NCBI GenBank assembly: GCA_004347685.1
Contig: SLTJ01000024.1
Span: forward strand, 1 to 40,621
Length of the DNA: 40,621 bases
Direction of reading: 5' to 3'
Source of the DNA: Clostridia bacterium
GTDB lineage: Bacteria; Bacillota; DSM-521; Neomoorellales; SLTJ01
Positions 1 to 26,183 of the stretch are shown in pieces. Every line of letters starts with the position of its first letter. Positions within the stretch are counted from its first letter, which is position 1. The position numbers and the translations under genes are program-made. The notes under the pieces were generated by a model, which was not told where the DNA came from, made no database searches, and saw nothing but the letters and a program-made list of their open reading frames with translations.

Positions 1-729
1 ATAAGCAGAGCCGAGTCCAGTACTATTTTTCAAGCTGGCACAGGGTGGCTGAGTAGTTACTCCGTCTCCATCATCTAGCATGAATGATGCCAGGGCGGCC
101 AGGTCGGAAAAGCAATGGGGATACTCTGCCAGGAAGTTTTTCATTTCCTTCCGGCTGTAACCCAGATGGGCAATATTAAATTTCACTTCCGGGAAATCTT
201 CCAGGAGTTTACGGGCAAAACTACCGTCTCGTGTAAGGTCTACATGTATCAGCACCGGCCACCCAAGGGAGGCCGCCTGGACTACGGCTTCGTAGTATAC
301 CCTTTGAAACCTTTCCTTAGAAATGCCCAGGGTCCTGGGGATGCTGCTTATTTCCACAGCCCTGTCGCCGACAGGAATATAAAGAAGCTTTAACCCGCCA
401 AAGCCCTGCTTTGCATACTCTTCCAGGCAGAGAGAATCGGGATCAGTAGCGCTGCGAATATCCAGGAAAGGTATTATCCGGCACCGGGTGTCCTCTTGCA
501 GCAGCTTCATCGTTACCGGGACCCGGCTGAGCTCCAATCTTGCCAGCCATTTCCATCCCCATGGCGGCACCAGTTTGGACATGGTTTCCCTGTCCTGTCC
601 GAAGTTGTCCATAATACATGTTACCGCGGCTGTTATCCCGCCCCGGCCACATTCATTGACCTGTTGGACAGCCTCCTGGCACGTGTCCATCCCGGCAACC
701 AGGTGCCAGTGCACATCTATAACCGGCAA
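1..729 (-). CDS. Amidohydrolase-family (TIM-barrel) metal-dependent hydrolase, 3' end outside window
   Basis: The 243 visible residues read through to the window edge without a stop. The N-terminus IDVHWH gives the first metal-binding HxH pair of the amidohydrolase-2 barrel. FLDIR, GGLKLL, LIHVDL and NIAHLG follow in the order of the barrel strands, with the His residues of the last two in typical metal-ligand positions, then SDLAAL. The family hydrolyses or decarboxylates small ring or amide substrates; the substrate here cannot be read. I chose TTG at 729 because it follows a GGGGAGG ribosome site, while the ATG further upstream is out of frame. A sigma-A-like promoter lies just upstream. 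The last 20 codons coincide with a repeat terminus (44-60) and do not look like the family's C-terminus, so the gene may be truncated there. Confidence 0.72.
   Translation of the reverse strand, partial: MPVIDVHWHLVAGMDTCQEAVQQVNECGRGGITAAVTCIMDNFGQDRETMSKLVPPWGWKWLARLELSRVPVTMKLLQEDTRCRIIPFLDIRSATDPDSLCLEEYAKQGFGGLKLLYIPVGDRAVEISSIPRTLGISKERFQRVYYEAVVQAASLGWPVLIHVDLTRDGSFARKLLEDFPEVKFNIAHLGYSRKEMKNFLAEYPHCFSDLAALASFMLDDGDGVTTQPPCASLKNSTGLGSAY
44..60. repeat. Repeat terminus shared with the element at 25951-26085
   Basis: Read on the minus strand this is GTAACTACTCAGCCACC. It matches 16 of 17 bases with the left end of the inverted-repeat element at 25951. The rest of this copy would lie at positions below 44 and beyond the window. 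Confidence 0.5.
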
Positions 730-22267: not shown

Positions 22268-22806
22268 AGCCTTGAGCAAACCGTAAGCCGAATTCTGTCA
22301 TGGATGGCCATCTATCTGGGACGCCAGTTACCCGGCGCCTCAAGCGACCTTACCCGGGAACGAAGCGGGCCACTTCATGGTTCCCCTATTTGGTCTTGCT
22401 CCAGGTGGGGTTTACCGAGCCAACCCGGTCACCCGGGCTGCTGGTGAGCTCTTACCTCGCCTTTCCACCCTTACCCGGCACTCAGTACAACGTGGAGATG
22501 GCCAAGAAGGCTCTCTTCCTGAGAGGTAAGAGAGCACCTTCTCGGTACGACACCTTCTACACTAAACTGAGTGCCGGGCGGTCTGTTTCTGTGGCACTAG
22601 CCTTGGGGTCACCCCCACTGGGTGTTACCCAGCACCCTGCCCTGCGGAGTTCGGACTTTCCTCAGGCAACCCGGCACTCAATATACCGTAGACTCCATAC
22701 CACCAAGAAAGAGTATTTCCAAAGTGTCAAGGAAGGAGGCCACCGAAGTTATCTCTACGGTATATTGAGTGCTGGGTACCCGTGGCCATCTGGTTTACTC
22801 AAGGCC
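22268..22806 (-). ncRNA. rnpB: RNase P RNA, class A, with very large P3 and P12 helices
   Basis: The catalytic RNA of RNase P processes tRNA 5' ends. Signature blocks on the minus strand are the P4 5' strand GAGGAAAGTCCG (22652-22663), CAGGGTGCTGGGTAACACCC for P7-P9, the GGTAAGGGTGGAAAGG block after P12, AGGTAAGAGC, CGGTAAACCCC, AAATAGGG, and the 3' block ACAGAATTCGGCTTA (22284-22298). P1 pairs CCTTGAGTAAACC with GGTTTGCTCAAGG and sets the ends. Length is about 540 bases against 350-400 for most bacteria. The excess is in P3 (19-bp perfect outer stem, 22674-22692 with 22754-22772) and P12 (11-bp outer stem, 22476-22486 with 22566-22576, with a second hairpin inside). Both use the same CCCGGCACTCA sequence. 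Confidence 0.93.
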
Positions 22807-26098: not shown

Positions 26099-26183
26099 TG
26101 GTGCGGGTGGGGGGATTTGAACCCCCACGGGGGAAGCCCACCAGATCCTAAGTCTGGCGCGTCTGCCGTTCCGCCACACCCGC
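26099..26183 (-). tRNA. tRNA-Leu, anticodon TAG
   Basis: The 85-base gene has a perfect acceptor stem GCGGGTG/CACCCGC, discriminator A and an encoded CCA. The anticodon stem is CCAGA/TCTGG with loop CTTAGGA, and there is a long variable arm as expected of Leu. It reads CUA codons and others by wobble. Confidence 0.95.

Follow-up and report, generated by a model that had tools for sequence, protein, structure and literature searches.

A dispersed hairpin element probably accounts for the enlarged helices P3 and P12 of a Clostridia RNase P RNA

Introduction

How does an essential catalytic RNA acquire two extra-long helices that begin and end with the same sequence? The RNase P RNA gene (rnpB) in the window, meaning the whole 40,621-nt stretch of DNA that was analysed, raises this question, as its helices P3 and P12 are each enlarged to ~105 nt and share their terminal arms. 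Variable extra helices in essential RNAs are usually put down to slow accretion or to slippage. In this case their source is directly legible: a dispersed element that lies in P3, P12 and P19 of rnpB, in rRNA of both subunits (16S and 23S), and in two riboswitches. We put at roughly four in five the probability of the explanation set out below, namely that a dispersed, non-coding hairpin element is present once in each of P3 and P12 of this rnpB.

Results

An enlarged class A RNase P RNA

The gene encodes a class A RNase P RNA and is the sole rnpB found in a search of the genome (Table 1). The Rfam model RNaseP_bact_a (RF00010, gathering score 100) matched positions 22680 to 22269 of the minus strand; model positions 1-367 were all aligned and the expansions were confined to variable helices, placing the RNA within the class. 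The alignment starts inside P3 because that helix is expanded, and the true 5′ arm of P1 was located from an inverted repeat in the sequence. We found CCCGGCACTCA at 22474 and 22670, with its inverted partner at 22568 and, with one difference, at 22766. The P3 stem consists of 19 contiguous pairs, one mismatch, and 4 further pairs, while the base of P12 has 13 contiguous pairs and encloses a second long hairpin. An earlier sequence-only reading of this DNA had described the shared arms, and its repeat positions, 19-bp P3 stem and inner P12 hairpin proved correct; the Rfam alignment likewise treats the P12 element as an insert in P12. No Rfam intron model, group I or group II, matched over any element, and the insert is ~100 nt long. 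Elsewhere in the window, positions 26102-26183 of the minus strand hold a tRNA gene whose variable arm is long.

Table 1. Features of the rnpB locus (window coordinates).
Feature	Position	Strand	Evidence
rnpB, bacterial class A RNase P RNA, ~538 nt	22269..22806	-	RF00010, 278.9 bits; P1 5′ arm by sequence; single copy
P1 5′ arm (partner 22269-22282)	22792..22805	-	14-nt inverted repeat, 93% complementary
P1 3′ arm	22269..22282	-	same inverted repeat as P1 5′ arm
Hairpin element forming expanded P3; arms 22754-22777 and 22669-22692	22669..22777	-	24-nt arms, 96% complementary, 19 contiguous pairs; ends match dispersed family
Hairpin element forming expanded P12; arms 22566-22578 and 22474-22486	22474..22578	-	13-nt arms, 100% complementary; P12 insert in Rfam alignment; ends match dispersed family
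Inner second hairpin of P12 element	22504..22545 (approximate limits)	-	minimum-energy fold of P12 element

The hairpin is dispersed in the genome and in the order

Many places in this genome other than rnpB also carry CCCGGCACTCA together with its inverse, 85-125 bases apart. A search for GCACTCA-(62..92)-TGAGTGC returned 9 exact matches, compared to 1 for the reversed control, and the stem common to P3 and P12 is therefore not due to chance. The element has 13-nt terminal inverted repeats, CCCRGCACTCAAC and GTTGAGTGCYGGG, around a variable interior (~60-100 nt). When degenerate copies are included, this genome carries at least 13, with at least two subfamilies that have conserved interiors; the copies were counted by pattern search, which prefers symmetric ends, so both the counts and the contexts are biased toward such copies. 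Terminal inverted repeats on dispersed copies without coding capacity are features of miniature inverted-repeat transposable elements (MITEs). We observed that in this genome several copies (L212-L216, L218, and L220) were flanked by repeats ending in GGAA on the left and/or starting with TTCC on the right, forming a larger repeat unit. A c-di-GMP-I-GGC riboswitch was also noted in this genome, at L225:5081-5164.

Among 22 genomes of the order, G003 contained 39 pairs (39 or more copies) and G010 contained 23, with none in the controls. The other Moorella-type genomes with any match mostly had exactly one pair, and two in one genome, always including the copy in rnpB P12; the controls were again zero. 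In the same-family relatives G001 and G002, P3 and P12 of rnpB were present without the element. The comparison suggests that two different copies probably entered rnpB after this lineage had split from those relatives. The idea that a hairpin had entered rnpB twice, raised in the sequence-only reading, is thus upheld by the dispersal of the same ends in this genome, by their occurrence in P3, P12 or P19 of many bacteria, and by the lack of both insertions in the relatives. In G003, the flanks of copies on contigs C2, C26, C36, C39 and others were repeated too, so that larger dispersed repeats enclose the hairpin. Downstream of rnpB in one Moorella-type genome, at a distance of a few hundred bases, there is a match to a group II intron domain (L006:2360-2434).

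The family extends over several phyla

We scanned 84,980 species with GCACTCAAC-(59..89)-GTTGAGTGCYGGG and obtained 83 loci, where we estimate that about two would be expected by chance. The loci belonged to Bacillota, Desulfobacterota, KSB1, Acidobacteriota and a few other groups; many of the records come from metagenome assemblies, where misassignment is possible, so single taxonomic labels are not to be trusted alone. Membership of one family was confirmed by the trinucleotide CCC, which lies outside the searched pattern and stands ahead of it in 145 of the 158 match orientations. The consensus of the element ends is CCCRGCACTCAACYY. Three of the 83 loci (L129, L137, and L176) look like chance matches, and there was no match to the element in viral contigs.

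Copies recur in structured RNA genes

About a third of the 83 loci, no fewer than 27, lay in structured RNA genes, although such genes account for very little of a genome's length. Insertions in P3, P12 or P19 of rnpB were found in records of Bacillota, Desulfobacterota, KSB1, and Acidobacteriota. Carriers in P12 include Moorella, Pelotomaculum, Syntrophomonadaceae, Desulfobacterales and Thermoanaerobaculaceae; P3 is occupied in L108, L125, L138, L140, L141, and L147, and P19 in L108, L117, L125, L138, and L155. Most rnpB carriers had one insertion only, while L125 had the element in all three helices. The matched expansion of P3 and P12, which had been regarded as non-standard, is not unique to this rnpB, as both helices also carry the element in L125, L140, and L147. 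On a tree of the rnpB core there were at least 4 changes of state for P3, at least 10 for P12 and at least 5 for P19, values that are lower bounds of events rather than rates given that the sample was chosen for carriers.

Ribosomal and regulatory RNAs were occupied as well. The element was present in the 3′ part of 23S rRNA in L105, L123, and L165, and in 16S rRNA at the tip of helix 44 in L109 and in the 5′ region in L100, the rRNA helix names being our own reading of the sequence. These five are hairpin insertions within an rRNA helix, as are rRNA intervening sequences; the copies in the window sit in rnpB. In L130 the element is carried by P1 of the glmS ribozyme, and in L118 by a loop of a cobalamin riboswitch. 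Outside RNA genes, 88% of copies were intergenic, compared to 21% of random positions. In the 23S carrier Sporotomaculum syntrophicum, the 5S rRNA gene is oversized too, at ~190 nt, and holds a different insert (L105:5726-5915).

Signs of movement or conversion in other bacteria

The P3 and P12 copies of L140 were 89% identical over their whole length, and the P12 and P19 copies of L117 were 86% identical. In two related bacteria, the P12 copies (L147:47-150 and L155:4850-4953) were 96% identical only after one of them was inverted, while the flanking rnpB had the same orientation in both. Since copies have been duplicated between rnpB helices and inverted in place, they evidently move or convert. 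Subfamilies within genomes, such as those in the genome of the window, are a further sign of mobility or conversion.

A search for the means of movement

We looked for the traces that a mobile element might leave. There was no excess of direct repeats of at least 4 bases at the ends of the 83 copies, as target-site duplication would produce, and no palindrome continued outward past the ends beyond chance. No autonomous element with the same ends was present in 20 stretches of G003, where the DNA between candidate pairs was unrelated or consisted of ordinary genes. The gene families most often shared among neighbours of the copies were those around rnpB, and none was mover-like. A Y1 (PF01797)/RAYT transposase was considered as the mover; it had no match in this genome and was present in G003, G010, G007, and G020. 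Lone facing ends were also considered as the limits of a larger element, and were set aside because the ends in L109 lie within 23S rRNA and the pair in L137 encloses ordinary genes. With no target duplication, autonomous copy, recurrent neighbour or Y1 transposase among these results, mobilisation is something that we infer.

Discussion

The ends of the element are strictly conserved and its interiors are free, which suggests that a trans-acting enzyme recognises the ends. Such an enzyme, recognising the terminal repeat, would mobilise the element without target duplication. Insertions into structured RNAs would survive only at variable helix tips, which in rnpB are P3, P12, and P19, and the inserted hairpins would stack there as an added helix, sparing the catalytic core. 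The rnpB of this lineage would have captured two different copies. Selection may be reflected in the helix-tip positions within RNA genes, and the large share of copies in such genes may be due either to retention, in keeping with the longer stems of the rnpB copies, or to targeting. Our widest proposal is a tentative one that we hold with less than even confidence: that one mobile hairpin family with CCCRGCACTCAAC ends, moved by a putative enzyme, crosses phyla and preferentially colonises catalytic and regulatory RNAs at the tips of their helices (RNase P, rRNAs, the glmS ribozyme, and a riboswitch), driving the evolution of expansion segments.

Conserved ends could have another origin. If the hairpin were an intervening sequence that a double-strand-specific nuclease removes from the transcripts of rnpB, rRNA and riboswitches, selection for correct excision would conserve the 13-nt stem. 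The copies at rRNA helix tips resemble known intervening sequences, and rnpB copies have longer stems than the others (16.1 versus 13.3 pairs). However, most intergenic copies keep the same ends though no obvious RNA gene surrounds them, known double-strand-specific nucleases depend on base pairing and not on a particular sequence, and the dispersal would be left unexplained, so we judge excision unlikely to be the source of the conserved ends. We are equally doubtful that the location in RNA genes results from preferential insertion into single-stranded hairpin loops, as by an HUH transposase or an integron integrase. The share of scanned loci in structured RNA genes and the absence of target duplication are what such a mechanism would give, and clear hairpins are seen at a few empty intergenic sites (L098, L134, and L139 among them). 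Yet the trend was not significant overall: hairpin tips were no commoner at empty intergenic sites than with mismatched flanks (0.35 in both), 7% of the sites were at p≤0.05, and this genome has no Y1 transposase. The mean folding energy of the empty sites was slightly lower, at -14.3 versus -13.0±0.4.

It is also conceivable that the P12 element is a duplicated P3 arm, or the reverse, that arose within this rnpB and later diverged with no mobile element involved. A near-identical P3/P12 pair does exist in another bacterium (L140), and copying of arms between helices was seen in L140 and in L117. In the rnpB of the window, however, the two interiors are unrelated: their similarity was matched by 13 of 111 other copies, and neither had a convincing match to any other copy in this genome. 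Two separate captures are for this reason likelier than arm copying, and the suggestion that one arm had been copied onto the other finds no support in this gene. With the same ends at many sites outside rnpB, duplication is strongly weakened and we regard it as very improbable. The common arms could further let P3 and P12 swap partners, as the sequence-only reading proposed, giving an alternative fold that might be regulatory. Cross-pairs of the P3 5′ with the P12 3′ arm and of the P12 5′ with the P3 3′ arm are possible, but the native arms pair at -39.6 and -28.9 kcal/mol and the swapped ones at -20.5 and -26.9 kcal/mol. Because cross-pairing is ~21 kcal/mol weaker in total, and most carriers have a single insertion, we give such a fold almost no credence.

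The reading that we prefer, a dispersed hairpin captured twice, has against it that the two interiors in the window find no convincing counterpart among the other copies of this genome. It has partial parallels among known systems. MITEs are similarly short, non-coding, dispersed and intergenic, with terminal inverted repeats and subfamilies within genomes; the present element differs in lacking target-site duplication, in that no autonomous partner was found in 20 stretches of G003, in having strongly varying interiors with ends common across phyla, and in recurring inside essential structured RNAs. Rickettsia palindromic elements, which also occur within genes, and REP/BIME sequences are likewise dispersed palindromes, but the element has a different sequence and is found in several phyla, and the Y1 (RAYT) transposase is absent from this genome. 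The P12 helix of cyanobacterial RNase P RNA is also expanded by a repeat, in that case by short tandem repeats (STRR), whereas here a single hairpin element is involved that also enters P3 and P19. Integron attC sites form a long imperfect hairpin too, and ACTCAAC / GTTGAGT formally fits RYYYAAC / GTTRRRY; in the element, by contrast, conservation reaches beyond this core (CCCRGC), the copies are dispersed and intergenic, and no cassette arrays were seen. A further parallel is offered by the intervening sequences of 16S and 23S rRNA and the expansion segments of 5S rRNA, where hairpins have likewise been inserted at the tips of rRNA helices in related Firmicutes. Stepanov and Fox (2021, PMC7812874) described expanded 5S rRNAs with hairpin insertions in these bacteria and suggested horizontal spread via mobile elements; RNase P is unmentioned in their text. 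Unlike those insertions, the element described here is defined by one sequence common to RNase P RNA, 16S and 23S rRNA, and riboswitches, with no protein-coding gene inside. No earlier description of it was found in the literature searched, subscription journals not being covered.

Essential RNAs seem to have been repeatedly invaded by one widespread selfish hairpin, and the findings point to an undescribed mobilising enzyme. Recent copies, the inversion in place and short possible remnants make expansion by invasion testable through comparison of strains. The short forms are P12 hairpins on the base of the element in L010 (CCCAGCACTCTAGTGCCGGG), L004, and L019, together with a short version of P3 in L155. 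They look like remnants of internal deletion, and could instead be ancestral. In the record that has a full copy in 16S rRNA (L109), we also noted GCACTCAGCACTCAACTTGTTGAGTCTGAGT at 1070-1100 on the minus strand, within 23S rRNA, which resembles a collapsed copy of the element.
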